From Oscillospiraceae bacterium (GTDB taxonomy: Bacteria; Bacillota; Clostridia; Oscillospirales; Acutalibacteraceae), in contig JAAYOC010000017.1 of assembly GCA_012520505.1 (NCBI GenBank), positions 124,001 to 188,000 on the forward strand: a stretch of DNA of 64,000 nucleotides, written 5' to 3'. Positions within the stretch are counted from its first letter, which is position 1, and each line of letters opens with the position of its first letter. The notes below the pieces were generated by a model. The model ran no database searches, was not told where the DNA came from, and worked only from the letters and a program-made list of their open reading frames with translations. Below are positions 1,485 through 40,736 of the stretch, in pieces. The position numbers were made by a program, and so were the translations under genes.

Positions 1485-1591
1485 TTTTATATTCACAGGC
1501 TTAGTTATGCTTACCCTATTGATAAAAACCCGTTCAATTGTTATAATTATTTCGTAGATGAATTGATTATTTGCAAGGGGGAGACACAAAA

Positions 1592-1756
1592 ATGAAAGTT
1601 CCACTTAATGAAATCCTCGGTGTTGTTGGTCGTGGAGTTGGAATACTTAGTGATAAACTTCAAAGGTTTATGCATAGCGGTAAAATAGCAGATTTTTGGG
1701 AGTGGGTAGACAAAAAATGGTATCGTTCTACCATGCATGACCCTCGCCATGATTAA
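1592..1756 (+). CDS. Small hypothetical protein (54 aa)
   Basis: 54 aa starting MKVPLNEILGVVGRG. The ATG at 1592 lies about 9 bases after an aagggggag ribosome site, which is why it is preferred to the in-frame TTG at 1571. The N-terminal half is a short amphipathic or hydrophobic stretch (LNEILGVVGRGVGILSDKL). The C-terminal half is rich in W, K, D and R (DFWEWVDKKWYRSTMHDPRHD). A hairpin follows directly, so it appears to be a self-contained transcription unit. No family is recognised; the ribosome site and following terminator support a real gene. Confidence 0.55.
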   Translation: MKVPLNEILGVVGRGVGILSDKLQRFMHSGKIADFWEWVDKKWYRSTMHDPRHD

Positions 1757-1768
1757 TAAATTAAATCA

Positions 1769-1800
1769 GGAGCAACCGCAAGGCTGCTCCTTTAATTCAA
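1769..1800 (+). terminator. Probable rho-independent terminator
   Basis: GGAGCA (1769-1774) pairs with TGCTCC (1785-1790), extended by a CC/GG pair around a GCAA tetraloop, then TTTAATT. The T tract is weak. It separates the 54-aa gene from thrH. Confidence 0.6.
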
Positions 1801-1813
1801 CAGGAGGATATTT

Positions 1814-2416: not shown

Positions 2417-2517
2417 TTTGTTTTAAGTTTATTATCAATTAAGTCAAAAAACAAAAGCTCTTTGTTTTGAATAAGTGCACGCAAATAAAACATATGACAA
2501 AAGTAAGGAGGCTTTTT

Positions 2518-4068
2518 ATGAAAAAAACAAATGGACTGAAATTAGTAGGCATAACTCTAATATTGGCAATAATATTAGCTTTGCCGCTAAGTATAATCTC
2601 TGTCACTGCAGAAGAAGAAAGTCCTATTGAATCAATAATTGTAGAAAATGATGGATTTTCAATTATTGAAAATGACAGAAATTACGGGTATATGAAAAAA
2701 GATCAAACTGGTTATGATGGAGAAGGAAATCCCATTTTCTCTGAGGAATATTTTTATTATCCGTCTTCTCGCTTTACCCCAACAATCACCATAACTTACA
2801 AAGACCCTGAACTAGAGCCGGAAATTCTTACAAATAAAAATTACTACTCAGAAATCCTCCAAGAATCTGTTCAGTTTATACAAGAATTCCCACAAAAACA
2901 TGATAGTCCATGGACTGTGAATAATACATATCCAGTAAGAGCAGAAATAGGTGGTGCGTCCCAAACATTTAATATAAAAATAGTAGAAAGTCCCGTTGAA
3001 TCAATAACTGCAACAAATGTAATAATTATTGAAAACGACATAAGATATGGATCTCTAACTAAAGAAATCATTGGTTACGATGAAAACACAGGCGAACCCA
3101 TCTATTCCGACAACGAATATTTTCATTATGACCCATACGCTATTAAACCAAAAACAATCACAATAAAATACAAAGATGAAACTAATTTCGGTACAGAAAT
3201 TCTTACCGCAAGTAGTAATTACCGATCAGAAATTCTTAATCAGTTTATTCATTTTGAAGAAAAAGAAATACAGGACTATGAAAACCGATGGGTTTTAGGT
3301 GGAACATATCAATTACGAGCAGAAATAGTAGGCAAATTCGCTTATTTTGATGTGTCTATAATTGAAGGTACCGGTTGGCAAGAATTTGATGAAAAATGGT
3401 ATTATTTCGATGAAAATGGCGAAATGGCAACAAATAAATGGGTTGCTGATACAAAAGGTTGGTGCTATCTCGGAGAAGATGGCGCAATGGTAACAGATAA
3501 ATGGGTTGCAGATAAAGGATACTGGTACTACCTCGGATCTGATGGACGAATGGTAAAAAATAAGTGGGTTGAAGATTCAGTAACTTGGTGTTACCTTGGT
3601 GAAAATGGTGCAATGGTAACTAACCAATGGAAGCAAGATTCTAAAGGATATTGGTATTATCTCGGTGCAAACGGTAGAATCTTAATTAAAAAATGGTTTT
3701 ATTACAACGGATATTGGTATTATTTCGATGCGAACGGTGCAATGGCAACAAATAAATGGGTTGCTGACACTAAAGGGTGGTGCTATCTTGATGCAAAAGG
3801 CAAAATGGTAACCAACAAATGGGTTAGAGACACAGTGACTTGGTGCTATATTGGTGCAGATGGACGCGCTGTTAAGAACCAATGGCAGAAAGATCGTAAT
3901 GGTTGGTGCTACCTTGATGAGAATGCAAGACTTACAGTTGGTTGGAAACAAATTTCCGGTAAATGGTACTATTTCAATAGAAACGGTACTATGGTAACCG
4001 GAAGACAGGTTATTGATGGTGAGGTACACATATTTGATGCTAATGGTGCTTGGATTAGAAAGAACTAG
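2518..4068 (+). CDS. Secreted cell-wall-binding repeat protein (two N-terminal modules)
   Basis: 516 aa. The ATG at 2518 is chosen because aaggagg stands just before it; an in-frame TTG at 2467 has no ribosome site. Residues 1-32 form a signal peptide ending near SVTA-EEES. Two related modules of ~130 aa follow, each opening with a (E)SPxESI motif and ending with a G-x-x-F/Y-D/N-x-x-I segment, resembling bacterial Ig-like beta modules. The C-terminal ~220 residues hold 11 aromatic repeats of the WYYxxxxGxM / WCYLGxDGxM type, as in choline/cell-wall-binding repeat families. It is likely attached non-covalently to the wall. No catalytic domain is seen. It is a paralogue of the next gene. Confidence 0.85.
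   Translation: MKKTNGLKLVGITLILAIILALPLSIISVTAEEESPIESIIVENDGFSIIENDRNYGYMKKDQTGYDGEGNPIFSEEYFYYPSSRFTPTITITYKDPELEPEILTNKNYYSEILQESVQFIQEFPQKHDSPWTVNNTYPVRAEIGGASQTFNIKIVESPVESITATNVIIIENDIRYGSLTKEIIGYDENTGEPIYSDNEYFHYDPYAIKPKTITIKYKDETNFGTEILTASSNYRSEILNQFIHFEEKEIQDYENRWVLGGTYQLRAEIVGKFAYFDVSIIEGTGWQEFDEKWYYFDENGEMATNKWVADTKGWCYLGEDGAMVTDKWVADKGYWYYLGSDGRMVKNKWVEDSVTWCYLGENGAMVTNQWKQDSKGYWYYLGANGRILIKKWFYYNGYWYYFDANGAMATNKWVADTKGWCYLDAKGKMVTNKWVRDTVTWCYIGADGRAVKNQWQKDRNGWCYLDENARLTVGWKQISGKWYYFNRNGTMVTGRQVIDGEVHIFDANGAWIRKN
3370..4020 (+). repeat. Copy 1 of a 651-bp direct repeat encoding the wall-binding repeats
   Basis: Aligns without indels to 6326-6976 in the neighbouring paralogue and is nearly identical by eye, while the upstream modules of the two genes are much less similar. 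Suggests recent duplication or gene conversion of the wall-binding half. Confidence 0.85.
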
Positions 4069-4150
4069 ATAAATACGATTTTCTTAATTCCGATTGTGTT
4101 ATTGATAAGTTCATTGATAAGATGATAGAACAATAAAATACGTGTAAAAT

Positions 4151-4187
4151 GAAGGTGGCTCCATTATGAGAGCCACCTTCGTTATTT
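4151..4187 (+). terminator. Rho-independent terminator
   Basis: Eleven-base stem GAAGGTGGCTC (4151-4161) / GAGCCACCTTC (4170-4180), loop of 8, followed by GTTATTT. It ends the first cell-wall-binding gene. The rest of the 268-base gap to 4337 shows no gene. Confidence 0.8.
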
Positions 4188-4336
4188 AGGTATAATAACT
4201 TTATTTCATTTTCTCTCATAATTTAATCTACTAAAGTAAAAAAGGATTGCTTAATTGATGTTAAGAGGGTAAAATGAACTTTGTAAGGTGTTTTTATAAA
4301 AACACAAATAAAAACGCATAAAATAAGGAGGTCACT

Positions 4337-7018
4337 ATGAAAAGAACAAATAGATTAAAATTGGTAAGTCTAGTTTTAACGTTAGCAATGGTAATATCGT
4401 TTCTACCGCTAAGTGTAATCCCTGTCGCTGCAGAAGAAAGTCCTGTTGCTTCAATAACTGTAGAAAATATATCTCCACTTATTGAAAATTACCATGGCTT
4501 TATGGCGAGAGATGTTATTGGTCATGATGAAGAAGGATATCCCATCTGGTCAGACGAATTTTTTTATTATGACCCTAACTATTCCAAACCTGTAATTACA
4601 ATAGAATATGAGGATGGAACCGGTTTTGAAACAGAAATTCTTGATGGTGGATTTTATGCTTCCTATTACTCGGAAAATCTTGATGAATATGCCGTATTTG
4701 GAGTAAAGTCGCCACAAGACATTGAACATCAGTGGAGTGTAGGTAACACATATACGGCATACGTATTAATAGGTGGTGTATCTACAGAGTTTGATGTAGA
4801 AATAGTGGAAAATCCTATTGAATCAATAACTGTAGAAAATATATCTCCACTTATTGAAAATCACAGTCGCTATGGAATGATGACTCAAGACTGGCTTTAT
4901 TATGATGAGGAAACAGGAACTCATGTTTATTCCGAAGAATATTTTCGTTATTTCCCTAATTGTTCTTATCCTACAGTCACAATAACTTATAAAGAAGAAT
5001 CCGGTTTTGAAACAGAAACTTTTGATGGCAAAGATAATTCTTCTTATTACTCAGAACAGCTTAAAGCCCATGTTGACTTTGTTGAATTTGAAGGCGTGCA
5101 AAATCATGAAAATCCATGGATTGCAGGTAACACATATCAAGTAAGTGCATCGATATGTGGTGTATCCACAACATTTGATGTGGAAATAATAGAAAATCCT
5201 GTTAAATCAATAACTGTAACAGATATAACAGTTTATGAAAATGATAGATATCACGGGTACATGAATAGCAACTACCTTGGTTTCGATGAAAACACAGGCG
5301 AATCTATTTATTCCTCAGAATATTTTTACTACGACCCTGATTGGTTTGAACTAGAAATTGTAGTAGAGTATGAAGAAGATTCCGGTTTTGAAACAGAGAC
5401 TTTAGAAGCTTCTTGGGAAGGTTTTGGTTACTTATATCGCTCAAAACAGCTTGATGATTTTGTTGAGTTTGAAAACGTATCAGAACAAGATTATGACCAT
5501 CAGTGGACTAAAGATAACACATATCAAGTAAGTGCATCGATATGTGGTGTATCCACAACATTTGATGTAGCTATAGTAGAAAGTCCTGTCGAAAGTATAA
5601 CTGTAACAAACATAGAAATATACGAAAATGACAAAGACTATGGCTCTATGGTTGCAGATTACCTTTACTATGATGAAGAAGCAGAAACTGAAATTTTCTC
5701 CGACGAATATTTTTATTATGTGCCTTATTGGTTTGAACTAGAAATTGTAGTAGAGTACAAAGAAGAAACTGGTTTTGATCCAGAGATTTTAAAAGAAAAA
5801 TGGACAGGCGATATGCGCGATTACTACTCAGAAACTCTTGATAGACCTGTTTATTTTGAAGAAACACAAAACTTTTACAATCAATGGAGTGTAGGTACCC
5901 ACACAGTATATGCAGAGATAGCCGGTGTGTCCACAACATTTGATGTAACTATAACAGAAAGTCCTGTCGCTTCAATAACTGTAACAAATGTAGTAATTTT
6001 TGAAAGAGACAAAGAAAATTATGGAAGAATGATTAGGGATTGGCTTGGTTTTGATGAAGACGGAGAACCTATTTTCTCCGACGAATATTTTTGTTACGAT
6101 TTTATACCTTGCGAACCTACAGTTGTAATAACCTATAAAGAGGGAACTGGGTTTGAAACAGAAACTCTTACAGGATCACCTTATATCTCAGAAGAACTTG
6201 GAAAGCCTGTTTATTTTGATGATGAACAAAACTACTTTAATCAATGGACTGCGGGTAGCAAAAATCCGGTAAGGGCAGAAGTACTAGGTAAATATACCAC
6301 TTTCTATGTATTTATAATTGAAGATACCGGTTGGCAAAAATTTGATGAAAAATGGTATTATTTCGACGAAGATGGCAAAATGGCAATAAATAAATGGGTT
6401 AGAGACACTAAGGATTGGTGCTATCTTGGAGAAGATGGCGCAATGGTAACAGATAAATGGGTTGCAGATAAAGGATACTGGTACTACCTCGGATCTGATG
6501 GACGAATGGTAAGAAATAAGTGGGTTAGAGATTCAGTAACTTGGTGTTACCTTGGTGAAAATGGTGCAATGGTAACTAACCAATGGAAGCAAGATAAAGA
6601 AGGATATTGGTATTATCTCGGTGCAAACGGCAGAATCTTGATCAACAAATGGTTTTATTACGACGGATATTGGTATTATTTCGGTGAGAACGGTGCAATG
6701 GCAACAAATAAATGGGTTGCAGATTCTAAAGGTTGGTGCTATCTTGATGCAAAAGGCAAAATGGTAACTAACAAATGGGTTAGAGACACAGTGACTTGGT
6801 GCTATATTGGTGCAGATGGACGCGCTGTTAAGAACCAGTGGCAGAAAGACAGTAATGGTTGGTGCTACCTTGATGAGAATGCAAGACTCACAATTGGTTG
6901 GAAACAAATTTCCGGTAAATGGTACTATTTCAATAGAAACGGTACTATGGTAACCGGAAGACAGGTTATTGATGGTAAGGTGTACAGATTTAATTCTAAT
7001 GGCGTTTGGATCGGATAA
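4337..7018 (+). CDS. Secreted cell-wall-binding repeat protein (five N-terminal modules)
   Basis: 893 aa, ATG after an aaggagg site. Residues 1-31 are a signal peptide (KLVSLVLTLAMVISFLPLS core). Five successive modules of ~125-135 aa follow to about residue 655, each starting with ES/ENPVxSITV and ending with GVSTTFDVxI or similar; they look like Ig-like beta domains. The last ~230 residues carry 11 aromatic wall-binding repeats almost identical to those of the upstream paralogue. Compared with that protein, three extra modules have been gained here or lost there. A role as a surface protein or adhesin is an inference; no enzyme motif or sortase signal is present. Confidence 0.85.
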   Translation: MKRTNRLKLVSLVLTLAMVISFLPLSVIPVAAEESPVASITVENISPLIENYHGFMARDVIGHDEEGYPIWSDEFFYYDPNYSKPVITIEYEDGTGFETEILDGGFYASYYSENLDEYAVFGVKSPQDIEHQWSVGNTYTAYVLIGGVSTEFDVEIVENPIESITVENISPLIENHSRYGMMTQDWLYYDEETGTHVYSEEYFRYFPNCSYPTVTITYKEESGFETETFDGKDNSSYYSEQLKAHVDFVEFEGVQNHENPWIAGNTYQVSASICGVSTTFDVEIIENPVKSITVTDITVYENDRYHGYMNSNYLGFDENTGESIYSSEYFYYDPDWFELEIVVEYEEDSGFETETLEASWEGFGYLYRSKQLDDFVEFENVSEQDYDHQWTKDNTYQVSASICGVSTTFDVAIVESPVESITVTNIEIYENDKDYGSMVADYLYYDEEAETEIFSDEYFYYVPYWFELEIVVEYKEETGFDPEILKEKWTGDMRDYYSETLDRPVYFEETQNFYNQWSVGTHTVYAEIAGVSTTFDVTITESPVASITVTNVVIFERDKENYGRMIRDWLGFDEDGEPIFSDEYFCYDFIPCEPTVVITYKEGTGFETETLTGSPYISEELGKPVYFDDEQNYFNQWTAGSKNPVRAEVLGKYTTFYVFIIEDTGWQKFDEKWYYFDEDGKMAINKWVRDTKDWCYLGEDGAMVTDKWVADKGYWYYLGSDGRMVRNKWVRDSVTWCYLGENGAMVTNQWKQDKEGYWYYLGANGRILINKWFYYDGYWYYFGENGAMATNKWVADSKGWCYLDAKGKMVTNKWVRDTVTWCYIGADGRAVKNQWQKDSNGWCYLDENARLTIGWKQISGKWYYFNRNGTMVTGRQVIDGKVYRFNSNGVWIG
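6326..6976 (+). repeat. Copy 2 of the 651-bp direct repeat
   Basis: Co-linear with 3370-4020; see that entry. Crossing over between the copies would delete about 2.96 kb and fuse the two genes. Confidence 0.85.
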
Positions 7019-18080: not shown

Positions 18081-18089
18081 GGTTACTAA

Positions 18090-18195
18090 TTCTTTTTTAG
18101 TTTTCTTTTTTTTCTATTTTTTCTGTTTTTTAATTTTCTTTATTTTTTCTATTTTTCTATTTTTCTATTTTCTTTATTTTTTTCTATTTCATAAA
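18090..18195. repeat. Polypyrimidine low-complexity tract
   Basis: T-rich on the plus strand with repeated TTTTCTATTTT units. No gene or hairpin is seen. It lies between the tad leader and the IS30 remnant. Confidence 0.6.
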
Positions 18196-18234
18196 TTGCA
18201 ATAATAAGTTGGACACTTCTCATGCAACATTCAG

Positions 18235-18400
18235 TTAATAGATTTTATCTGACCCTTCCTCAAATAATTCATTTGGAGTTTTGTACCCAAAAATCTTACG
18301 AGGAAGGCTATTGCACCGAGTTTCTATATTAGCAATTGCGCGAATTGAGTAGTTATCTTTTGAACGAAGTTGAATAATTACTCGCTCTTCATATAAAAAA
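18235..18400 (-). pseudogene. IS30-family transposase remnant with internal deletion
   Basis: The minus strand reads YEERVIIQLRSKDNYSIRAIAN, the N-terminal helix-turn-helix start of IS30 transposases. It is fused in frame to RCNSLPRKIFGYKTPNELF and a stop, the IS30 C-terminus (compare NNRPRKxLGFKTPxEVF). The catalytic DDE core between them is missing, so an internal deletion of most of the gene has occurred. It marks the left edge of the catechol island. The sequence past the stop (AGTTGGACACTTCT on plus, ~18207-18220) may be part of the old terminal repeat. Confidence 0.8.
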
Positions 18401-18421
18401 TATTAAAGGAAATAATAACTG

Positions 18422-18450
18422 TTGACAAAGACAAATCTAATCAGTATAAT
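18422..18450 (+). promoter_or_regulatory. SigA-type promoter of the hydrolase gene
   Basis: TTGACA (18422-18427) and TATAAT (18445-18450), both perfect, with a 17-base spacer. Transcription should begin near 18457, just before the operator palindrome. Confidence 0.88.
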
Positions 18451-18465
18451 AGCATTATCAAAAGT

Positions 18466-18482
18466 TTAGCACACTGTGCTAA
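18466..18482 (+). promoter_or_regulatory. 17-bp operator palindrome, left copy
   Basis: TTAGCACACTGTGCTAA is a perfect palindrome around a central C at about +10 to +26, followed by a further half site ACAGCAC (18486-18492). The right copy differs by a matched pair of changes that keep the symmetry. Likely the binding site of the IclR regulator at 23881-24630, or an RNA hairpin. Confidence 0.75.
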
Positions 18483-18533
18483 TATACAGCACAAAATAAA
18501 CAGACATTTTTAAAAAATAGCAGGAGGTATAAA

Positions 18534-19352
18534 ATGTCAAGACCGGAAATTGGAAAAAGTATACAAACAGGACGATTTATAACAAATTATTTAGAGCAAG
18601 GCGAAGGATATCCGCTTATATTTATTCACGGTTCAGGTCCCGGTGTTTCAGCTTATGCTAACTGGAGATTGGTGCTTCCGAAAGTTGCAGAAGTTTCTCA
18701 TTGTTATGCAATTGACATGATCGGATTTGGATATTCTTCAAAGCCGACCAATGTAACATACGGCAGAGAATTATGGACAAAGCAAATTGTTGATTTTATG
18801 GATGCAATGGGAATTGAAAAAGCCGACTTTGTAGGAAACTCATTTGGTGGTTCACTGGCATTATCGGTAGCTATTAATCATCCTAAAAAAGTAAGAAAGA
18901 TTGTAATGATGGGACCTATGGGCGTTGAATTTAATATTTCTTACGGACTTAATGAAGTGTGGGGTTATCAGCCATCACTTGAGAATATGTTACAGATGTT
19001 GGATTTGTTTACATTTAATAAAAAATTTGCTAATGAGGAACTTGCAAATGTTAGATATCAAGCTTCAATCGAGCCGGGCTTCCAAGAGGCATTCAGCTCT
19101 ATGTTCCCGGTACCGCGACAGAGAGGCGTTAACGACTTATCGTTCCCTGATGATGTGATAAAAACGGTTCAGAATGAGACTTTAATAGTTCATGGTAGAG
19201 AAGACTTGGTTATTCCTGTAGAAAATTCTTACAGACTGATTAATTTGCTTCCTAATTCGGAACTTCATATTTTCAGAGGTTGCGGTCACTGGACTCAAAT
19301 CGAGAAAGCAGATGAATTTGCAACACTTGTAAAAGGATTTATAACAAGATAA
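18534..19352 (+). CDS. dmpD: 2-hydroxymuconic semialdehyde hydrolase (XylF/DmpD family)
   Basis: 272 aa alpha/beta hydrolase with aggagg before the ATG. The oxyanion segment HGSGPGVSAYANWR and the nucleophile elbow GNSFGG (Ser ~103) are those of meta-cleavage-product hydrolases. The acid lies in HGREDLVIP and the histidine in GCGHWTQIE. It cleaves the C-C bond of the ring-fission product made by catechol 2,3-dioxygenase, giving 2-hydroxypenta-2,4-dienoate and a carboxylic acid (formate from catechol itself). It is transcribed toward the rest of the pathway, from its own copy of the shared promoter. Specificity between plain and alkyl-substituted products cannot be read from sequence. Confidence 0.9.
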   Translation: MSRPEIGKSIQTGRFITNYLEQGEGYPLIFIHGSGPGVSAYANWRLVLPKVAEVSHCYAIDMIGFGYSSKPTNVTYGRELWTKQIVDFMDAMGIEKADFVGNSFGGSLALSVAINHPKKVRKIVMMGPMGVEFNISYGLNEVWGYQPSLENMLQMLDLFTFNKKFANEELANVRYQASIEPGFQEAFSSMFPVPRQRGVNDLSFPDDVIKTVQNETLIVHGREDLVIPVENSYRLINLLPNSELHIFRGCGHWTQIEKADEFATLVKGFITR

Positions 19353-19365
19353 AAAACCGATTATA

Positions 19366-19530
19366 AGGTGACCCCAAAAGTTAAACTTTTACCGCAGCGA
19401 GAGATTGCTGCGGTTTTTCTATGCGACAGACATTTGTTTTCAATATTCTACCGAGCTTTTGTAACCGAGAGGTGCTTTAATACGCTTCTTGTTAATGTTA
19501 GAACATCGCTTTAGTATTTTGCCATAATTA
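19366..19530 (-). mobile_element. IS3-family remnant (transposase C-terminus and end)
   Basis: The minus strand at 19440-19530 encodes NINKKRIKAPLGYKSSVEY and a stop, the C-terminus of IS3-family OrfB (compare NxxRIKxxLGYxSPVEYR). The segment GTGACCCCAAAAGTTAAAC at ~19367-19385 resembles an IS3-type end. The rest of the element is absent. It lies at the point where the hydrolase and dioxygenase transcription units meet. Confidence 0.65.
19391..19419 (+). terminator. Rho-independent terminator
   Basis: ACCGCAGC (19391-19398) pairs with GCTGCGGT (19407-19414), then TTTT. It would end the hydrolase transcript; it may derive from the end of the IS3 element. Confidence 0.8.
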
Positions 19531-19581
19531 AACTGACCTCCCTATATTAGACTTCTTAGGTCTAATTTGCGGAGGTCAGTT
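19531..19581. repeat. 51-bp palindromic repeat, copy 1
   Basis: Outer arms AACTGACCTCC (19531-19541) and GGAGGTCAGTT (19571-19581) enclose inner arms TTAGAC (19547-19552) and GTCTAA (19560-19565). Related to the elements at 46833-46915 and 56036-56080. Could act as a bidirectional terminator between convergent units. Confidence 0.75.
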
Positions 19582-19619
19582 CATTCCGGGCAGGTTATTT
19601 TGTGTTTAAAAGCTATATT

Positions 19620-20540
19620 TTATGTCAAAACGGTTAAGAATCTTTCATTTAATTCTTTAGTGTAATAGAATATTCCCTCTCCTGCTCTATCTGCCGACCA
19701 CTCTCTAAGCGGAGCATCAGGAAAGTATTCGTATCCTCCCGCATATGTCTCTACTCTATTTCCTGACGGATCGAAGAAGTAAATGGTTTGTCCTCTTGTA
19801 ACACCGTGTCTCATCGGACCCGCATCAATTTTTATGTTATATCTTGCCATAATATCGGCAGCTCTTCCTATATCGTTCCAGCCCGAAAGTTGGAATGAGA
19901 AATGGTGAAGCTTGCCAGCGTCAGGAAAATTCAATAAAGCAACATCATGACCCCTTGTATTTGAGCTTAACCATGTGCATATATATCCGTTTTTATCTTC
20001 GGTATATAATACTTCAGTAATTGCCATTCCCATTACTTCCACAAACCAATTTACGCATTCTCCCTGATTAGGTCCTGCAAGCAGAGCATGGTCAAATAGG
20101 TTAGCTTCCATTCCGTGAGGTTCTTTGTCCCATATTTTGGGATTGCAAGTCATCGGTTTTTGCTCCGCCAACTCAACTTCACTATAAACCCCTATAGTAT
20201 GTCCGTTAGCGATTTTGAACATCTGAATTGTACCAAATCCCGGCTGATCTGTTACTTCATATCTTTCATAACCGAATTTTTCATTTTTTGCAATTACATC
20301 CTTTACAGTTTCTTCGTCTAATGCCTTAAAACACATAAAGTCAATTCCGGGTGAGTCAGCTTCCCTAAGTACAACTGAATGATGATCAAATTCATCATAC
20401 CCTTTCAACATAAATCTGTCATTGCCTAATTTTCCAACTTTTGTAAGACCTATTCTATCATGATAAAAGTCTACACTCTCCTCCAGATCCAATACTCTAA
20501 GTTGGATTAACCCTGATCTTAAAATACCCTTTAGTGCCAT
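19620..20540 (-). CDS. xylE: Catechol 2,3-dioxygenase (extradiol, XylE type)
   Basis: 306 aa from the ATG at 20540, preceded by aggagg; an upstream in-frame start adds 11 residues without a site. Length equals that of XylE (307 aa). Two vicinal-oxygen-chelate domains are present: the N-terminal one opens GLIQLRVLDLEESVDFY. The C-terminal one carries all three Fe(II) ligands: His in FDHALLAGPN, His in KLHHFSFQL and Glu in RVETYAGG. It opens the catechol ring between C2 and C3 using O2. It is the last gene of the minus-strand operon. O2 dependence makes it unusual in a presumed anaerobe. Confidence 0.93.
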   Translation of the reverse strand: MALKGILRSGLIQLRVLDLEESVDFYHDRIGLTKVGKLGNDRFMLKGYDEFDHHSVVLREADSPGIDFMCFKALDEETVKDVIAKNEKFGYERYEVTDQPGFGTIQMFKIANGHTIGVYSEVELAEQKPMTCNPKIWDKEPHGMEANLFDHALLAGPNQGECVNWFVEVMGMAITEVLYTEDKNGYICTWLSSNTRGHDVALLNFPDAGKLHHFSFQLSGWNDIGRAADIMARYNIKIDAGPMRHGVTRGQTIYFFDPSGNRVETYAGGYEYFPDAPLREWSADRAGEGIFYYTKELNERFLTVLT

Positions 20541-20642
20541 AATATCCTCCTGTTTTTTTGTTATAGTTTGCATAATAGATAATCATGTTACTCACTTCTC
20601 TAAAATTCTAAATTCTACCCTCCCTTTTTAATTATTTGTATT

Positions 20643-20939
20643 TTATTTTTTATTATTTTTACCTATGTACTCAATAACCATATCGCTTTTAGGAAAAACC
20701 CTGCACGCAAGCGCATATCCTTTTTCGAATTCCTCGTCGGATACTTGTTCCTTACTCCATTTTTTTACTTCAAATTCTCCACTGACAATTCTTATTTTAC
20801 AAACACCGCATCCGCCGTTCCTACAACCGTTCGCCTTATGACTACTGTTATAACGAGCAATTCCTTTTAAAATATGGTCTCCTTCATTAACGTTAACTGA
20901 AATATTTTCATTTAAAATTTTGACAATATATTTTTTCAT
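20643..20939 (-). CDS. xylT: XylT-type [2Fe-2S] ferredoxin
   Basis: 98 aa. Plant-type ferredoxin fold with the cluster motif GCRNGGCGVCKIRI and the fourth cysteine in YALACRVFP. The overall pattern, including the GEFEVKKWS stretch, matches XylT/DmpQ/NahT. Those proteins reduce oxidised iron in catechol 2,3-dioxygenase and so restore its activity. The gene directly precedes the dioxygenase gene on the same strand, as in Pseudomonas meta operons. An electron donor for it is not encoded in the window. Confidence 0.88.
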   Translation of the reverse strand: MKKYIVKILNENISVNVNEGDHILKGIARYNSSHKANGCRNGGCGVCKIRIVSGEFEVKKWSKEQVSDEEFEKGYALACRVFPKSDMVIEYIGKNNKK

Positions 20940-20967
20940 ATATACAAAATCCTAATCTCCGATTGAA

Positions 20968-21978
20968 CTATTTATTCTTGGCGAGTTCAGCCGCTATCTC
21001 ATATAGCCAGTCTTCCTGACCTCCGACAGCTTCTCTCTTTCCAGCTTCAAGAATTATTTCTCTATAATCTACACCGAATCTTTTCTCTGCTCTTTTTGCA
21101 TGAAGCATAAAACTCGAATATACTCCCGCGTAACCTAACATTAAAGGATCTTGAATTTTGGGAAGCTTTACTCCATATTTTTCTACTATAGGCTGAAGTA
21201 CCTGCGTAGCCGCATCCATAGATTTAAAGAAATCGGCATTTATTTCATAGCCGGACCTTTCCATTACACCGACAATCATTTCCGTTGCGGTATTACCCGC
21301 TCCTGCTCCCAGTCCTCCAAGTGAGCCGTCTATATATGTTGCTCCGGATTCCAGCGCAGCTAAAGAATTGCCTATCGCAAGACCCAGATTGTTATGAGAA
21401 TGAAAACCTACCGGTATCGAAAGATTCTCAACAAGTGCAGATATCTTTGCTCTTACATCATTAGGAACCATAGCACCTGCCGAGTCTGTAGTATACACTA
21501 CATCCGCCCCGTAGGATTCCATCTTCATAGCTTCTTCCACTACCCTTTCCACCGGCGCTCTATGTGCCATCATTAAGAAACCTACCGTAAAAAATCCTAT
21601 CTTTTTAGCTTCAGTAATATGCTCCATAGATATGTCGGCTTCAGTAACATGTGTAGCCACTCTGACTACTCTTGCTCCTGCTTCATATGCTTTTTTCATA
21701 TCAGGAACGGTTCCTATTCCGGGTAATAAAAGCACGGCTATTTTAGCTTTTTTTGCAACGCTTGCCGCCGCATTTACAAGATCTATGTCCGACTCTTTTG
21801 AAAAACCGTAGTTGATAGTTGAGCCTGTAAGTCCGTCACCATGACCTACTTCAACAATATCTATACCAGCTTCATCTAAAGCTTTAACTACATTTTTTAC
21901 ATCTTCTACGGAAAATTGATGTTTTACTGAATGATTTCCGTCTCTTAGCGAGGTATCCGTAATTTTTATTTTATTCAT
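20968..21978 (-). CDS. dmpG: 4-hydroxy-2-oxovalerate aldolase
   Basis: 336 aa. DmpG/BphI family with N-terminal metal site TDTSLRDGNHSVKHQ and the two metal-binding histidines in GFHSHNNLGLAIG, plus the C-terminal communication domain (ATQVLQPIVEKYGVKLP). It splits 4-hydroxy-2-oxovalerate into pyruvate and acetaldehyde. The start overlaps the stop of the acetaldehyde dehydrogenase gene by 1 base (TAATG), fitting the known complex in which acetaldehyde is channelled between the two enzymes. Length is normal. Confidence 0.95.
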   Translation of the reverse strand: MNKIKITDTSLRDGNHSVKHQFSVEDVKNVVKALDEAGIDIVEVGHGDGLTGSTINYGFSKESDIDLVNAAASVAKKAKIAVLLLPGIGTVPDMKKAYEAGARVVRVATHVTEADISMEHITEAKKIGFFTVGFLMMAHRAPVERVVEEAMKMESYGADVVYTTDSAGAMVPNDVRAKISALVENLSIPVGFHSHNNLGLAIGNSLAALESGATYIDGSLGGLGAGAGNTATEMIVGVMERSGYEINADFFKSMDAATQVLQPIVEKYGVKLPKIQDPLMLGYAGVYSSFMLHAKRAEKRFGVDYREIILEAGKREAVGGQEDWLYEIAAELAKNK

Positions 21979-22859
21979 TATTTATCCCTCCCTAAAATTT
22001 GCTTTGCTTTTCTCTCTGCTATTTCAATTGCTGCAGCATTTATAATGTCTAAATTTCCTGAATATACCGGCAAATAATCTCCTAATCCCGCAACTTCCAC
22101 AATCAGCATCACTATATCGTCATCTTCATACTTTAGAACCGGTTCCATTCTAAAGCTGATACCCGGTACATACTTGTGCATTTCTTCAAGTCTCTTATTA
22201 AGCGCCTCTTTAATCTTGTCCATATCTACATTTCTGACTCTTGTATAAATAGTGTTGGACATATAAATCGGGGGTTCCGCCGGATTTAATATAATCAAAA
22301 CTTTGGCTGTGTCCGCACCTGCCACATCTATAAGAGCATTTCTTGTAGTAATAGTAAATTCATCTATGTTTGCCCGTGTACCCGGTCCTGCTGATTTTGA
22401 TGAAATAGATGAAATAACTTCAGCATAATATACGTCCGCCACATCATTTATAGCGGCAACAAAAGGCGTCGTAGCCTGACCTGCACACGTAACAAGATTC
22501 ACATTATCCAAATTTAAAAGGTCATCATTAAGGTTAACCGCAGGCACACAATAAGGTCCTACTGCCGCAGGGGTTAAGTCAAGTGCAAACTTTCCCGCCG
22601 CTTTTAATTTCGGAGCATGCTCCAAGTGGGCACTCGCGCTTGTGCAATCAAATACTATCGGAATATCATTTCTTGATATTATGGCATCGGCTCCTTCTAT
22701 TGAAGTCGGGATGCCCATAGATCTTGCATGCTTGATTCCGTTTGATTCAAAAATATTTACAATCAGTTCCGGCTGTAGATAGTCACTTCTCATTACCTTA
22801 TAAAGAAGGTCCAAACCAATATTTCCCGGTCCTATTATTCCTACTTTAACTTTTTCCAT
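21978..22859 (-). CDS. dmpF: Acylating acetaldehyde dehydrogenase
   Basis: 293 aa, slightly shorter than DmpF/BphJ (~305-312). The Rossmann start reads VGIIGPGNIGLDLLYK. The catalytic cysteine is in NLVTCAGQATTP. CTSASAHLEHAP and the DLTPAAVGP stretch are typical of the family. It oxidises acetaldehyde (or propionaldehyde) with NAD and CoA to acyl-CoA, taking its substrate from the aldolase encoded next. Final step of the meta pathway in the cell. Confidence 0.95.
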   Translation of the reverse strand: MEKVKVGIIGPGNIGLDLLYKVMRSDYLQPELIVNIFESNGIKHARSMGIPTSIEGADAIISRNDIPIVFDCTSASAHLEHAPKLKAAGKFALDLTPAAVGPYCVPAVNLNDDLLNLDNVNLVTCAGQATTPFVAAINDVADVYYAEVISSISSKSAGPGTRANIDEFTITTRNALIDVAGADTAKVLIILNPAEPPIYMSNTIYTRVRNVDMDKIKEALNKRLEEMHKYVPGISFRMEPVLKYEDDDIVMLIVEVAGLGDYLPVYSGNLDIINAAAIEIAERKAKQILGRDK

Positions 22860-22871
22860 TTTTTCCCCTAC

Positions 22872-23642
22872 CTATTCAAAACATACTTCTAATATTCCCA
22901 AAGGTCCGTAATCTACTAAAAATTTATCACCGGGAAGAGCCGGTATAGCAGCGGACAAAGCTCCGGATAAAATTACATCACCGGCATTTAAGGCTACACC
23001 GTATTTGCTAAGACCATTTGCCAACCAAAGCACTGCATTGACAGGGTCTCCTAAAACCGCCGAACCCTTTCCGGAATTAATAAATTCGCCGTTTTTATAA
23101 AGTTTCAACTCGACTTCCTTAAGGTCTGTTTTTAAGGGATTAATTTTTGTGTCTGAGAGCAAATACATACCGCTAGAGGCATTATCAGATATCGTATCCA
23201 GAATTGTCACTTTCCAATCTTTTATTCTTGAACCGACTATTTCAAGAGCCGGTACTACATATTCTGTGGCTTGGTATATATCATCTATAGTGGCTCCGTC
23301 CTTTAAGTCTTCTTTGAGAATAAATGCAAGTTCACCCTCAACTCTTGGTTGAAGAATCTGACCTTTCTTTACAACATTATCCTTAACTTCCATAGAATCA
23401 CATAGAATACCAAAATCAGGTATATCAACACCAAGCGACTCTTGCATAGCCTTTGATGTAAGTCCTATTTTCTTACCTGTAATGATTTTCCCTTCAGTTA
23501 CTTTCCGGTCTATGTTTATCAGCTGTATTTCATAAGCATCATCTATCGTCAAACCGTCATAAATTTTACTAATTTGTTCTATCGGTTTGTTATTTGCCTC
23601 GGCTTTATAAAGAATTTCAGCTATTTCTTTGTTTCTTGACAT
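22872..23642 (-). CDS. dmpE: 2-oxopent-4-enoate (2-hydroxypentadienoate) hydratase
   Basis: 256 aa of the MhpD/DmpE fold. Family signatures are GKKIGLTSKAMQESLGVDIPDFG, QPRVEGELAFIL and the C-terminal SGALSAAIPALPGD. It adds water to 2-hydroxypenta-2,4-dienoate to give 4-hydroxy-2-oxovalerate. The related 4-oxalocrotonate decarboxylase is hard to separate by sequence. The hydratase reading is preferred because the island has the hydrolytic branch and lacks the semialdehyde dehydrogenase and tautomerase that the decarboxylase needs. First gene of the minus-strand operon, with aggagg before the ATG. Confidence 0.88.
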   Translation of the reverse strand: MSRNKEIAEILYKAEANNKPIEQISKIYDGLTIDDAYEIQLINIDRKVTEGKIITGKKIGLTSKAMQESLGVDIPDFGILCDSMEVKDNVVKKGQILQPRVEGELAFILKEDLKDGATIDDIYQATEYVVPALEIVGSRIKDWKVTILDTISDNASSGMYLLSDTKINPLKTDLKEVELKLYKNGEFINSGKGSAVLGDPVNAVLWLANGLSKYGVALNAGDVILSGALSAAIPALPGDKFLVDYGPLGILEVCFE

Positions 23643-23693
23643 TTTATACCTCCTGCTATTCTTTAATAATGTCTGCTCATCTTGTGCTGTATG

Positions 23694-23710
23694 TTAGCAC
23701 GGCGTGCTAA
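23694..23710 (-). promoter_or_regulatory. 17-bp operator palindrome, right copy
   Basis: TTAGCACGGCGTGCTAA (plus strand), perfect around its centre. Compared with the left copy, the positions flanking the centre have changed on both arms (A-T to G-C), so symmetry is kept. A third half site, ACAGCAC on the minus strand, follows. Confidence 0.75.
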
Positions 23711-23725
23711 ACTCTCGATAATGTT

Positions 23726-23754
23726 ATTGTACTGATTAGATTTATCTTTGTCAA
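23726..23754 (-). promoter_or_regulatory. SigA-type promoter of the dmpE-dmpF-dmpG-xylT-xylE operon
   Basis: On the minus strand TTGACA (23754-23749) and TACAAT (23731-23726) with a 17-base spacer. The -10 is one base weaker than in the left copy. Confidence 0.85.
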
Positions 23755-23819
23755 CAATTATTATTTTTTTGACATTTTTCTTTCTTATACATAAGAATTT
23801 TGTGTTTGATATGATTGTT

Positions 23820-23850
23820 AAAGTAAAAAAGACCTTTTTTCAAAGGTCTT
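23820..23850 (-). terminator. Rho-independent terminator of the IclR gene
   Basis: AAGACCTTT/AAAGGTCTT stem (23829-23837, 23842-23850) followed on the minus strand by TTTTACTTT. It separates the regulator from the operon promoter. Confidence 0.8.
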
Positions 23851-23880
23851 AAGCTTATTTTTTAATACTTTTTTCCAGTT

Positions 23881-24630
23881 TTAAAAATATTTTTCAATTT
23901 TATTTCTAACTTTTTTTAAATCATCTATCATTTCATCCAAATTATAATTATCTTTTCTAAATAAAGGCAGAGAAATACTTACAGCATGAGAACCTTGCCC
24001 TTGTTTGTTATGAATCGCTACTGCCAAGCAATATAAATCTTCGTGATTTTCTCCATTGTCTATTGCATATCCTCGTTTTTTAGTTTCAAAAATTTCTTTT
24101 GATAAATCTCCCTTGGCTGTTATCGTATTTTCTGTATATTTTTCCAATTTCGTTTTGTTCAAATAATTCATGATTTCTTCTTTAGATCTCGTAGCCAATA
24201 TGGCTTTGCCTACTCCGGTACAATATAAGGGCATCATACCTCCTATACCTGTATGAACCCTGATAGATTTTGTGGATTCTATTTTGTCGATATATAGAAC
24301 CACATCTTCTTCAGCTTGAACAAAATGGATTATCTCACCGTATTTCTTGGATAATTGTTCTAAATACGGTCTTGCAAATTCCAGTATTCCTATACCCGCA
24401 CTACCTTTTTCTCCGAGTTCTTTTAATTTAAAACTGGAATGATATTTATCAGTAGTTTCATCTTTAAATATGTAACCTAAATTATCCAGAGTCTTTATTA
24501 TACCGAAGGCTGTGGATTTATTAAGAGCAACTTCCCTTGCTATATCCGATACTCCGATTCCTTCATTATCAGCTATAGCCTCTAAAATTAAAAAAGCTCT
24601 TTCAACAGACTGATTGTTTTTTTGTGCCAT
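23881..24630 (-). CDS. IclR-family transcriptional regulator
   Basis: 249 aa. N-terminal winged helix-turn-helix (QSVERAFLILEAIADNEG, then DIAREVALNKSTAFGIIKTL) and the C-terminal IclR effector domain (IRVHTGIGGMMPLYCTGVGKAILA; ENHEDLYCLAVAIHN). IclR members often control aromatic catabolism (PcaU, PobR, MhpR types). The gene lies just upstream of the hydratase promoter and on the same strand, so it is the natural candidate for binding the repeated operator. The effector is unknown; a pathway intermediate is plausible. Confidence 0.92.
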   Translation of the reverse strand: MAQKNNQSVERAFLILEAIADNEGIGVSDIAREVALNKSTAFGIIKTLDNLGYIFKDETTDKYHSSFKLKELGEKGSAGIGILEFARPYLEQLSKKYGEIIHFVQAEEDVVLYIDKIESTKSIRVHTGIGGMMPLYCTGVGKAILATRSKEEIMNYLNKTKLEKYTENTITAKGDLSKEIFETKKRGYAIDNGENHEDLYCLAVAIHNKQGQGSHAVSISLPLFRKDNYNLDEMIDDLKKVRNKIEKYF

Positions 24631-24697
24631 TTTACATAACCTTTCAAATAAATTATTAACTTAACTTTGGAGATAACTAGTATAGCATAATATGTTA

Positions 24698-24871
24698 TCA
24701 ATTAAAAAACAACTGTAGAACAACTGTCCTGTCTTTTAAATCTTTTAAGACAGTTCCACTTCCATTTTTTGCCTCAAAAGCGGAATATTCTTCTTTATGC
24801 TCATCAAAAGCTTTCATAACCGTTTCAGCAGATTTATCGTTTTTAATTTTCTTTAGCTTTAGTTTTAGCAT
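24698..24871 (-). CDS. Possible small protein (57 aa)
   Basis: Frame from the ATG at 24871, which follows AAAGGAATAAAG, to a stop at 24698. It overlaps the end of the PrsA-like gene in another frame. The sequence is charged (MLKLKLKKIKNDKSAETVMK, then EHKEEYSAFEAKNGSG). No family is recognised. The ribosome site favours a real gene, but it could be a degraded fragment at the right edge of the island. Confidence 0.3.
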   Translation of the reverse strand: MLKLKLKKIKNDKSAETVMKAFDEHKEEYSAFEAKNGSGTVLKDLKDRTVVLQLFFN

Positions 24872-25844
24872 TCTTTATTCCTTTAATAGTGTCATAACAC
24901 TCTTTTTCAACCATATCTGTTGAAATTATTTTTACACCACTATATTTATCTGCCATATATTTCTCAAATTCTTTAGTTGCCATTTCTGAAAGAATCATTG
25001 CTGCATTATCAGAATAATACTCCGCACCATCTTTCTTTTGAACAAGAAAAATATATTTATCATATGCTAAAACGCTGATTGCGTCTTTTTCAAGAGCTTT
25101 TACTTCCTCAAAAAAGGGTTCCGGAAAAGTTTCACTTTTCTTTGAAGTTGAAAGAATTGGTAGCTCTGCTTCTGTACTACCGCCAAGACTTGTTACATAC
25201 TCTAAATTTACTGCATCAATTGTTACATCGCCTTTAATTTTTGCTTTCATATCTGCAAACTGCCCTTTTATTGCTGTAATTTCGTCGTCGTCGAGTGGTA
25301 CAGTTTCTCCTTTATCATTTACTGTGCAAAGATATGCACTAATTACTTTAAAGAAAACATAATTCTCTTCAAAATATGTTTCCTTTTCTTCTTTAGAGAT
25401 TGCTTTTTCTCCATCCTCACCATAAATTTTTTCAATAATTGCTTGGCGAAAAGCTTCACTTTCTTTAACCTTTGTTAATGTTTCTTTTGAAACACCAATC
25501 TTTTTATAATATCCGCTATAAACACCCCACAGATCGTTTACTGTTAATGAAACGTCTGCTTTATTAGATGAACTTAGTGACAATCCAAGTTCTTTAAATT
25601 CTGTATTGTATTTAACATAGTCGGCACACTTTTCTTCAGCTAGCTTTATTGCTTCTGATTTTTCTAAATCTGTGCCCTTCATTACTTCATCTAAATAATA
25701 ACTAAAGACATCTACATTTATTTTTACATCGTTTATTACAAGAGCCGTTTCATTTATTTTTGTTTCAGCTGAACAACCAAAAAATGAAAATAAAACAGTA
25801 AAAATTAACATTGCAACGACTACATTTTTGAAAAATCTTTTCAT
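24843..25844 (-). CDS. PrsA/SurA-like foldase lipoprotein
   Basis: 333 aa. Signal peptide with lipobox FSFFGC (Cys ~24), so the protein is lipid-anchored outside the membrane. The first half resembles the SurA/PrsA chaperone domain (ALVINDVKINVDVFSYYLDEV, as in 'VNGxxIxxxxF'). The later part keeps the layout of a parvulin-type domain (EEKETYFEENYVFFKVISAYL ... FFEEVKALEKDAISVL) but the usual isomerase residues are not obvious. Probably helps fold secreted proteins, such as the wall-binding proteins near the left end. The isomerase activity is uncertain. Confidence 0.7.
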   Translation of the reverse strand: MKRFFKNVVVAMLIFTVLFSFFGCSAETKINETALVINDVKINVDVFSYYLDEVMKGTDLEKSEAIKLAEEKCADYVKYNTEFKELGLSLSSSNKADVSLTVNDLWGVYSGYYKKIGVSKETLTKVKESEAFRQAIIEKIYGEDGEKAISKEEKETYFEENYVFFKVISAYLCTVNDKGETVPLDDDEITAIKGQFADMKAKIKGDVTIDAVNLEYVTSLGGSTEAELPILSTSKKSETFPEPFFEEVKALEKDAISVLAYDKYIFLVQKKDGAEYYSDNAAMILSEMATKEFEKYMADKYSGVKIISTDMVEKECYDTIKGIKNAKTKAKEN

Positions 25845-34746: not shown

Positions 34747-37353
34747 TTATTCTTCTCTTTCTATATCTTCTTCCATCTCTTCGAATTCTTCCATTTCTTC
34801 TAAATTTGAAAAAGTATCTTTATTTTCAATGTCTTCGTCATCTAATTCTTCTGTTTCATCATTAATATAAAATTCTTGATTTTCCCATTCTTCACGAATT
34901 GCTGCAAGAGTTATAAGTTTATCGTCACCAACAATTCTCATAACCTTAACTCCCTTTGCAGGACGTGTTACGCAGTTGATTTCCGCAGAAGATATTCTAA
35001 TAATTACACCATTTGAAGAAATCATAATAAGTTCATCTTCCGGTTCAACAAGTTTAATTGCTGCCACATTACCGTACTTATTAACACGATAGTTAAGGAG
35101 ACCTATACCGCCTCGTTTTTGAACTTTATAGTCTGATGGTTTTGATCTTCTTGCAAAACCTGTTTCTGAAACTGTAAGAACTGTAGCATTTTCATCAATA
35201 ACATCAAACCCAACAATATAGTCTTCCGGTGTTTTAAATGTAATTGCCTTAACTCCACGTGCAGTTCTTCCAAGTTCACGAGCATCTGTCTCATTAAAGC
35301 GAATACTCATTCCCTCATGCGTTGCAGCGATAAGATCATCTTTGCCACTTGTAAGTTTAACCCATGAAAGTTCATCATCTTCATCAAGATTAATTGCAAT
35401 AAGTCCACTCTTTCTAACATTTTTATATGCTGTTAAAGGAGTACGCTTGATAATACCATTCTTTGTCATCATACAAAGACGCTCTTCACCTTCAATTTCC
35501 GGAACTCTAAGAAGCGATGTAACCTTTTCTCCATCCATTAAAGGAAGTACGTTTACAATATTTGTTCCCCTTGCCTGTCTTGATGTTTCAGGAATTTCAT
35601 AGGCTTTTAGTCTATACGTTCTACCGAGATTTGTAAAGAACATTACAAAATCGTGAGTTGAACATGTAATCATTGTGGATGTAATATCATCCTCTCTTTG
35701 ATTCATACCTGAAACGCCACGTCCTCCACGACGCTGAATTTGATATTCAGTTGTAAGCATACGTTTAACATATCCCATTTCTGTAAGAGTTATTACTGAA
35801 GCTTCCTCAGGAATAAGATCTTCAATATCTACCTCACCGGAAATATTACAAATTTCTGTTCTACGATCATCACCAAATCTATCTGCAATGGCTTGTGCTT
35901 CTTCCTTGACAAGTTCAAGTATTTTACTTTCGTCAGCAAGAAGAATTTCAAACTCTGCAATTTTAATTTGAAGACTTTCGAGTTCATCCATAATTTTCTT
36001 AATTTCGAGTCCTGCAAGTTGACCTAAACGAAAAGCAACAATTGCAGCTGACTGTGGCTCATCAAAACCAAACTTTTCCATTAAAGCTTCTTTTGCTTCT
36101 GCTTGCCCGCCCTTACATGCACGAATTGTTGCAATAATATCATCAACGATATCAATCGCCCTAGCGAGCCCTTCCAAAATATGTGCTCGCTCTTTTGCTT
36201 TGTTAAGGTCAAAATGTGTACGTCTTATAATAATCTCTTTTTGGAAATTAATGTATTCCGTAAGAATTTCTTTAAGTGTTAAAATCTTTGGTTCTCCATC
36301 TACAATTGCGAGATTTATTACACCAAAAGTTGTTTGTAACTGTGTAAACTGATAAAGTTGATTTAAAATTACGTTAGGATTTGTTCCACGCTTCAAGTCA
36401 ATTGAAATATACATACCATCCATTGAAGAATAGTCATTTATATCTGAAATACCTTCTATTCGCTTCTCTTTTACCAAATTAGCAATATTTTCAATAAGTC
36501 TGGCCTTATTTACGCTATAAGGAATTTCAGTTACTTTAATTTCAAAACGATCGCCTGATTTTTCAACAATTTCTGCCCTTGCACGAAGTACTATTTTCCC
36601 TCTACCGGTAGCATAAGCTGCTCGAATTCCGGAGCGACCCATAATAATACCGTAAGTTGGAAAATCAGGACCTGGAATATGTTCCATAAGTTCTGCAAGT
36701 TCAATATTCGGATTATCAATAACTGCACACATTCCGTTTGTAACTTCTCTAAGATTGTGTGGTGGAATATTTGTAGCCATACCAACAGCAATACCCATTG
36801 AACCATTAACAAGCAAATTTGGATACCTAGAAGGTAAAACTTTAGGTTCTTTCAATCGATCATCATAGTTTGGCATAAAATCTACAGTGTCTTTATCTAT
36901 ATCAGAAAGCATTCTCGTAGCAATTCTGCTCATTCTTGACTCTGTATAACGATATGCTGCAGCTGGATCTCCGTCAACTGAACCGAAGTTTCCATGACCA
37001 TCGACAAGTATATATCTCATTGAAAAGTTCTGTGCAAGTCTAACCATTGCGTCATAAACAGATGCATCACCATGCGGGTGATATCTGCCAAGTACAGAAC
37101 CTACTGTATCTGCACATTTTCTATATGCCTTATCCGGAGTAAGACCATTTTCATGCATGGTGTAGAGAATTCTCCTATGTACCGGTTTTAATCCATCTCG
37201 CACGTCCGGTAATGCGCGCTGGATAATAACTGACATTGAATAGTCGAGGAATGATTTGCGCATTTCTTTATCAAGATCGACTGTAATAACTTTGGAATCT
37301 TCAAGATTTTCTACGAATTCTTGTTGTTTTTGTTTATGTAAATCATTTGCCAT
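34747..37353 (-). CDS. gyrA: DNA gyrase subunit A
   Basis: 868 aa. The catalytic tyrosine lies in [12 protein letters not shown] (residue ~125). The winged-helix quinolone region reads [17 protein letters not shown], so the position of E. coli Ser83 is Ala. C-terminal beta-pinwheel blades carry the GyrA box [10 protein letters not shown]. The last ~45 residues form an acidic tail ([14 protein letters not shown]..., [14 protein letters not shown]). With GyrB it introduces negative supercoils. 17 bases after gyrB, co-transcribed on the leading strand left of the origin. Confidence 0.97.
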
Positions 37354-37370
37354 TATTCATTCCCCTCCTC

Positions 37371-39635
<2,265 letters not shown>

Positions 39636-39651
<16 letters not shown>

Positions 39652-40736
39652 AATTCCCCGCCCTTTATTTCAAATACTTTTTTACTCTTTGATTTTAAAA
39701 TTGTAGACGGCTCACAACAGGTAATAAATACTTGCCATCCATCAATATGATTCAAAATATAATCTTGCCTGTTAACATCTAACTCACTCATTACATCATC
39801 AAGAAATGCAATTGGTTGTTTTCTAGTAATCTTTTTTATAACAGCTGCTTCCGATAATTTAAGTGCTAAAGCTGATGAACGCTGTTGCCCCTGCGATCCA
39901 TAAACTTTCGTAGGAAGCCCATCAAGTGAAAATAAAATATCATCTCTATGAGGGCCAATTCCTGTAATACCTGTTTTAAGGTCTTTTTTTCGATTTTCCT
40001 TCAATACAATTAAAAATTCTTCTTTAAGTTGTTCTATTTTTACACTTTCAAATTTAAATTCAGATTCATACTCTAAGGATATTTTTTCTTTACCTCTTGA
40101 AATTCCGGAATAAATATCTTCTATAAAAGGTTCAATTTCTTCTAAATACTTAAGTCTTTGATTAAGTATAGCGGCGCTCAAAAGTGCTAATTCATTATCC
40201 CAAATATCAAGTGTGTCATACAACTCAGAATGATAGTTAATGTCTTTAAGTAAAGAATTTCTTTGTTCTAAAACACGTTTATATCGAGCTAATACATTAG
40301 AATATTTTGGTCGAAGTTGACAGAGAGCCATATTTATAAATCGTCTTCTCTCAGCTGGAGCACCTTTTATTAAATTTAAATGATTTGGAGCAAAAATTAT
40401 TCCAAGAAATTCAGAAAAAAGCGGCGTAGTACTTGTATATTCAATGCCATCTATTATTACTTTCTTTTTTTCGTCAATTATTATTGATGCTTCCCTATTA
40501 CGAAATTCATCATTAAACTGTAACTCTATTTTTGTAAATTCTTTACCAAACTTTATAAATTCCTTATCTTTTGATCCTCTAAAAGAGCGACAACCGGTAA
40601 AAAGCCATAAGCTTTCAAGTAAATTTGTTTTTCCTTGTGCATTTTCTCCATAAATTATGTTTACTCCATCACAAGGATTAATTTCCATATTCTCTATATT
40701 TCTAAAATTTTGAATTTTTAGAGAATTTACTATCAT
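39636..40736 (-). CDS. recF: DNA replication and repair protein RecF
   Basis: 366 aa SMC-like ATPase. Walker A is IYGENAQGKTNLLESLW; signature GSQGQQRSSALALKLSEA; Walker B PIAFLDDVMSELD. It loads RecA at gaps with RecO and RecR. The ATG overlaps the yaaA stop (ATGA) and follows GAGGT, so translation is coupled. Standard position downstream of dnaN. Confidence 0.96.

Follow-up and report, generated by a model that had tools for sequence, protein, structure and literature searches.

Two inverted copies of a promoter with a candidate three-box IclR-type operator precede convergent catechol meta-cleavage units in an Oscillospiraceae genome

How do two transcription units that run towards each other come to start with the same control region, and what is likely to act on it? 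The question is raised by a 64,000-nucleotide stretch of DNA from an Oscillospiraceae bacterium (assembly GCA_012520505.1, contig JAAYOC010000017.1, positions 124,001 to 188,000; hereafter the window), in which a hydrolase gene standing alone converges with a unit encoding a hydratase, an acetylating acetaldehyde dehydrogenase (acDH), an aldolase, a ferredoxin and catechol 2,3-dioxygenase (C23O). As judged from the encoded proteins, the two units belong to the catechol meta-cleavage pathway. We put at roughly 80% the probability that the inverted copies represent one promoter that was duplicated, is controlled by an IclR-family regulator and serves both convergent catechol units. The copies themselves, a 25-bp site kept in relatives with an IclR gene adjoining it, and a rearranged gene order were read directly from the DNA, and from them we infer IclR binding, repression, an effector and the way in which the rearrangement came about.

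The duplicated control regions and their promoters are as follows.

18411..18542, + strand: duplicated control region, copy 1, from upstream of the −35 element to the third codon; 118/132 identity with copy 2
23634..23765, − strand: duplicated control region, copy 2, an inverted-repeat arm; 118/132 identity with copy 1
18422..18450, + strand: promoter-like site of the hydrolase unit, TTGACA-17-TATAAT, 12/12 consensus, top of 29 matches in 18200-24900
23726..23754, − strand: promoter-like site of the hydratase unit, TTGACA-17-TACAAT, 11/12 consensus

An earlier note on this DNA had described an inverted duplicate of promoter, operator and leader, and the comparison of the two copies bears this out. 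Within the 132-nt core (starting at 18411 and 23765) the longest exact run is 27 nt, and 13 of the 14 differences are transitions; a repeat search extended the arms to 146 nt (18397-18542 and 23634-23779, 86%). The elements follow the same order in each copy, with the promoter-like site, a palindrome, the leader and AGGAGG as the ribosome-binding site, then ATGTCAAGA. The sigma-70-like promoters of the two copies rank as the top two of the 29 matches, in a region whose shuffles average 24.3 matches. The 17-bp palindromes, located at 18466-18482 and 23694-23710, are both perfect, as had been claimed; read along its own coding strand, that of copy 2 is TTAGCACGCCGTGCTAA, the earlier description having given the + strand version. 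When up to two mismatches were allowed, TTAGCACNNNGTGCTAA matched twice in the whole window, at the two copies (mean of 0.18 in 100 shuffles, 2 of which reached at least two matches), and across the 1.69-Mb genome perfect matches were confined to these two copies, a reversed-pattern control giving none. The CIRCE element of HrcA, which controls heat-shock genes, has the outer half-site letters TTAGCAC...GTGCTAA in common with the window site; its spacing is much longer than the 3 bases found here, and an identity with CIRCE/HrcA was dropped on this spacing.

Alignment with relatives indicated that the palindrome is only boxes 1 and 2 of a longer site, whose box 3 (CAGCAC) had gone unmentioned.

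18468..18492, + strand: three-box operator, copy 1, AGCAC-ACT-GTGCTA-ATATA-CAGCAC; aligned without gaps over 25 bp with six relatives' sites; matrix rank 2/127952
23684..23708, − strand: three-box operator, copy 2, AGCAC-GCC-GTGCTA-ACATA-CAGCAC; matrix rank 1/127952

The two window sites and those of six relatives' loci (L007, L008, L054, L055, L056 and L061) define an ungapped 25-bp consensus, AG[A/C]AC-RNY-GTGCTA-N5-YAGCAC, from which departures are seen in L008, L054, L055, L056 and L061. Its half-sites alternate in direction (AGCAC> RNY <GTGCTA N5 CAGCAC>). In all six relatives the first gene has the site in its promoter gap, following a promoter-like sequence, and the gene upstream of the site encodes an IclR protein in five (that of L007 being cut at the contig end) and an aldolase in L008. 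Mean pairwise identity was 0.65 in the site versus 0.35 and 0.31 in the neighbouring 25-bp flanks (27 pairs, the pair of window copies excluded). A leave-one-out matrix placed the relative's site first in its own locus in six of six cases (11218 positions ranked for L007, 13342 for L008 and 37954 each for L054, L055, L056 and L061), while a matrix made from the relatives alone ranked window copy 2 first and copy 1 second among the 127952 positions. The search for the palindrome in relatives with the same genes, proposed in the earlier note, thus found the 25-bp site kept in six relatives; among the eight sites a perfect box 1 (AGCAC) is seen in the window only, six of six relatives reading AGAAC. 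A search with TTAGCACNNNGTGCTAA as an exact motif hit two of 200 family genomes, the own one and G047 (L005), with one of 200 for the reversed control; it is uninformative on conservation either way because the C23O gene is present in one of the 200 genomes, the own one.

As read from the sequences, 14-17 nt separate the −10 element from the site in the window (17 in both copies) and in four relatives, while the spacing between site and start codon is more variable; this difference speaks for a DNA site coupled to the promoter. In the window, the centre of either site is 54 nt 5' of the ATG.

We compared this architecture with known operators. Three-box operators of the IclR family have been predicted in 32 orthologous groups by Suvorova and Gelfand 2021 (PMC8222616), with those of PcaU, PobR and HmgR as earlier examples; such a site joins a group 2 palindrome, whose spacer has 1-2 bases, to a W3-4 palindrome (group 1) through one box in common, and IclR site centres mostly lie 20-80 nt 5' of the start codon (PMC8222616). 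The window operator resembles these sites in that an N1-spaced palindrome shares a box with a 17-bp W3-type palindrome, in its association with aromatic catabolism genes, and in a centre that falls within the 20-80 nt range (PMC8222616). The three alternating boxes with N1-2 and W3-4 spacing are present, as defined by the eight-site alignment and not by a footprint, and an IclR gene is linked to the site, at 23881-24630 in the window and as the adjoining gene in the five relatives named above. On architecture and linkage we would file it as a three-box IclR-type operator, which is a known kind, with binding presumed. Unlike the published sites (PMC8222616), the candidate operator occurs twice and inverted in one cluster, and its boxes read GTGCTA/TAGCAC versus the published GKTYC/GRAMC and TGRAACA/TGTTYCA. 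A narrow literature search on operator duplication with IclR gave no match. The site can serve as a specific candidate for the operator of an IclR regulator of a catechol meta pathway; the host lineage is unusual, and the box letters depart from the published consensus (PMC8222616).

A working model can be proposed from these comparisons. The adjacent IclR protein (23881-24630) would most likely bind the operator as a dimer or a pair of dimers and, bound in the first turns of the transcribed region, would repress both units. Because the operator lies within the predicted transcribed leader, blocked promoter escape or elongation is the most likely mode of repression, and release may be brought about by an aromatic compound or a ring-cleavage intermediate of the catechol pathway. 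The earlier proposal of a palindrome for a dimeric IclR regulator is retained to the extent that comparison points to an operator acting as DNA, whose most likely ligand is the adjacent IclR protein, while the part concerning symmetry selection at the changed base pair is given up (see below). The idea of one regulon built from two convergent transcripts gains support from the comparison, with the same predicted promoter and operator ahead of both units.

Several observations weigh against the IclR operator reading. The six relatives' loci were picked by eye for carrying the site. The window box letters alone gave the top match of the locus in four of six relatives (L007, L054, L061 and L056) and missed the sites of L008 and L055; box 3 of L008 is poor, and the L055 site is barely ahead of the next-best position (14.7 vs 13.8). 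In L055 and L056 the −10 element is 29-30 nt from the site. Among the 16 neighbourhoods whose C23O reached about 39% identity, 14 were searched for the site (all but L018 and L021), and in the eight further, more distant ones no such site was found in a promoter gap, the best matches reaching 11-13 of 17 box letters. The highest of these, with 13/17 letters (L062 6525), is inside a 502-aa frame, and all six best matches that were compared with frames or genes fall within them (L062 6525, L023 4343 and 14787, L017 6249, L063 17280, and L020 5854 in C23O). The window's own IclR gene is not preceded by a site among the top eight matrix matches. Finally, the fit to the family-wide IclR consensus is partial, with 20-23 of 32 letters over the eight sites when one letter is left free; of 127950 positions in the window, 70 equal or exceed the score of copy 1 and 1522 that of copy 2 (top 0.05-1.2%).

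Among the other explanations, the one that survives best, though we consider it unlikely, assigns the site to RNA: the inverted half-sites would form a structured leader whose 5' hairpin stabilises or attenuates the mRNA. The site does fall within the predicted transcribed leader. When six leaders were folded (copy 1, copy 2, L007, L054, L061 and L008; L055 and L056 were left out), copy 1 had a better fold than all but one of its 200 shuffles (z −2.8), whereas copy 2 (−0.8) and the four relatives (L007 −0.9, L054 −1.3, L061 +0.9, L008 +1.9) were unremarkable. A stem of boxes 2 and 3 was predicted in four of the six leaders (copy 1, L007, L054 and L061), which counts against the operator reading, and double changes at boxes 2-3 were in slight excess over shuffles, 67 of 500 of which reached the observed count. 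However, the predicted fold of copy 2 joins boxes 1-2 and that of L008 has neither stem, and stems by themselves do not discriminate because every DNA palindrome folds as RNA. As for the hairpin of the 17-bp palindrome suggested in the earlier note, AGAAC in box 1 of all six relatives costs the stem of boxes 1-2 one pair, that stem was predicted in one of six leaders (copy 2), and its covariation was no higher than in shuffles, with 395 of 500 showing at least as many two-sided changes. A conserved covarying stem was found for neither pairing, and the hairpin of the 17-bp palindrome was not supported; an RNA role of boxes 2-3 keeps a small probability. No Rfam match was obtained in the window at gathering scores.

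Still less probable than an RNA leader is the coevolution of palindrome and regulator, in which symmetry would be maintained at the base pair that changed between the copies; the earlier note had taken this matched change as a sign of selection for symmetry. We placed 14 differences of the observed types at random over the 132 bases, and the palindrome was altered yet perfect in 1.8% of the trials, which speaks for coevolution, whereas it was still perfect in 16.7%, which speaks against it. The bases that differ are the first and the third of the RNY spacer, and across the eight sites these outer letters are A..T (copy 1), G..C (copy 2 and L007), G..T (L061 and L056), A..C (L054 and L008) and G..A (L055). 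RNY is therefore seen in seven of eight sites in all four R/Y combinations, three symmetric and four not, with G..A in the eighth. Because the spacer pair occurs in these other combinations, the symmetric change is poor evidence for maintained symmetry, and with five letter pairs in eight sites and no covariation of boxes 1-2 above shuffles, selection at the changed pair is not borne out. The most economical reading of the alignment would be two independently tolerated transitions. This carries a caution, in that a symmetric change between two palindromes resembled coevolution until relatives revealed the other combinations.

Slightly more remote again is a coupling of the two operators, in which one IclR tetramer would bridge them (5.2 kb apart, on the convergent units) and a DNA loop would couple the transcripts; if so, the duplicated operator would have been selected instead of being a by-product of rearrangement. 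The weakest explanation is an invertible segment, in which recombination between the inverted repeats would turn 18.4-23.7 kb around: the repeats, 118/132 identical, do lie 5.1 kb apart, but their longest exact run is 27 nt, a Pfam scan of 37 proteins or fragments from the window (part of its open reading frames) found no site-specific recombinase, and with equivalent promoters and operators at both ends each flipped unit would sit behind the other, equivalent promoter and its control should not change, making a switch function improbable.

The genes of the two units and their surroundings are as follows.

18238..18402, − strand: IS30-type transposase remnant, abutting copy 1; tblastn 9e-10, 55% over 49 aa, against annotated plasmid IS30 transposases; HTH_38 E 0.0037, under cut-off
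18534..19352, + strand: alpha/beta hydrolase; Abhydrolase_1 9.5e-30; NF045632 HsaD 1.4e-52, 178 bits, under the equivalog cut-off of 400
19391..19414, + strand: terminator-like stem 3' of the hydrolase gene, between the convergent units; 10-pair stem and T tail
19620..20537, − strand: C23O; TIGR03211 325.6 bits, cut-off 320.2
20643..20939, − strand: [2Fe-2S] ferredoxin, adjoining the dioxygenase; Fer2 6.2e-14
20968..21978, − strand: 4-hydroxy-2-oxovalerate aldolase; TIGR03217 469 bits, over cut-off
21978..22859, − strand: acDH; TIGR03215 379 bits, over cut-off
22872..23642, − strand: 2-oxopent-4-enoate hydratase family protein, leading the long unit; TIGR03220 5.5e-81, 272 bits, under the equivalog cut-off of 409
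23881..24630, − strand: IclR-family regulator; IclR_C 9.2e-46, HTH_IclR 1e-10

The IclR-family gene is upstream of the hydratase unit and on the same strand (−). The hydrolase, which is HsaD/BphD-like, probably acts on the ring-fission product in the meta pathway. The cluster resembles the meta-cleavage catechol clusters of the dmp/xyl type: C23O, ferredoxin, hydrolase, hydratase, aldolase and acetylating acetaldehyde dehydrogenase are all in the window. Unlike in those clusters, the hydrolase is inverted and has its own control-region copy, and the cluster is rare in its lineage.

Gene order in relatives bears on how this arrangement arose. L007, L054, L055, L056 and L061 share the order IclR-(ferredoxin)-C23O-hydrolase-hydratase-acDH-aldolase, all on a single strand and with a single operator, although the L061 cluster gave no ferredoxin match; in L017, L019 and L023 the order is IclR-hydrolase-hydratase-acDH-aldolase-ferredoxin-C23O. 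L008, with both ends cut by the contig, reads hydratase, TRAP transporter-like genes, acDH, aldolase, operator, ferredoxin and C23O; it is the nearest to the window in sequence, at 75-87% for hydratase, acDH, aldolase and the available part of C23O and 57% for ferredoxin, and its genome, which may be incomplete, has no close hydrolase (best matches 25-33%). Hydrolase and C23O are on the same strand in all nine other loci with a full hydrolase match, and also in L063 (partial match). Among the compared loci, only the window has an inverted hydrolase and a second control-region copy, abutting the IS30-type remnant, and the duplication therefore most likely moved along with the hydrolase. We infer that the hydrolase gene would have left an ancestrally collinear operon and ended up inverted at its far end together with a copied control region, which would keep both convergent units in one regulon. 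This suggests how a gene leaving an operon may stay in its regulon, namely by taking a duplicate of the control region with it.

Counting the own genome, C23O was found in 1/11 genomes of the genus, 1/200 of the family, 6/295 of the order, 4/391 of the class and 9/398 of the phylum, one class match having only an E of 6e-4 and the phylum matches being mostly of 25-41% identity. L007 is an uncultured Clostridia metagenome-assembled genome and L008 a Tissierellia one, and C23O occurs in 5/130 and 2/308 genomes of their respective families, both included. The catechol meta-cleavage cluster at 18534-24630 thus stands in a lineage nearly without C23O among the sampled relatives and was perhaps acquired horizontally. 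C23O is a dioxygenase that requires oxygen. At the DNA level the promoter region had no match in plasmids and one weak partial match in a phage (E 9e-3, 51/135 bases).

Some smaller features were noted around these loci. A T/C-rich low-complexity tract with 8-9-nt quasi-repeats (18084-18200) adjoins the IS30 remnant. An IS3-type remnant suspected from the sequence at 19443-19541, 3' of the hydrolase, was dropped, as it had no plasmid match and no transposase model. Between the convergent units, 19520-19592 is an imperfect 33-nt inverted repeat (76%, arms GACCTCC...GGAGGTC), which may terminate transcription from both sides or mark where a lost mobile element ended. At its contig start (1-42) L008 has a hairpin-like palindrome, GGGGCAC-TAAAT-GTGCCCC, directly 5' of the hydratase gene and distinct from the three-box site, and its TRAP-type transporter-like genes (841-3745; a binding protein and two membrane subunits, judged by translation) lie within the cluster, the window cluster being without them. 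Elsewhere in the window, gyrA, gyrB, a RecF/SMC-like ATPase gene, dnaN and dnaA are consecutive at 34747-43630, with parB, gidB and mnmE within some 10 kb further on, and this likely replication-origin region is about 18-24 kb away from the catechol cluster. At 2467-7018, two neighbouring large proteins carry choline-binding (cell-wall binding) repeats.

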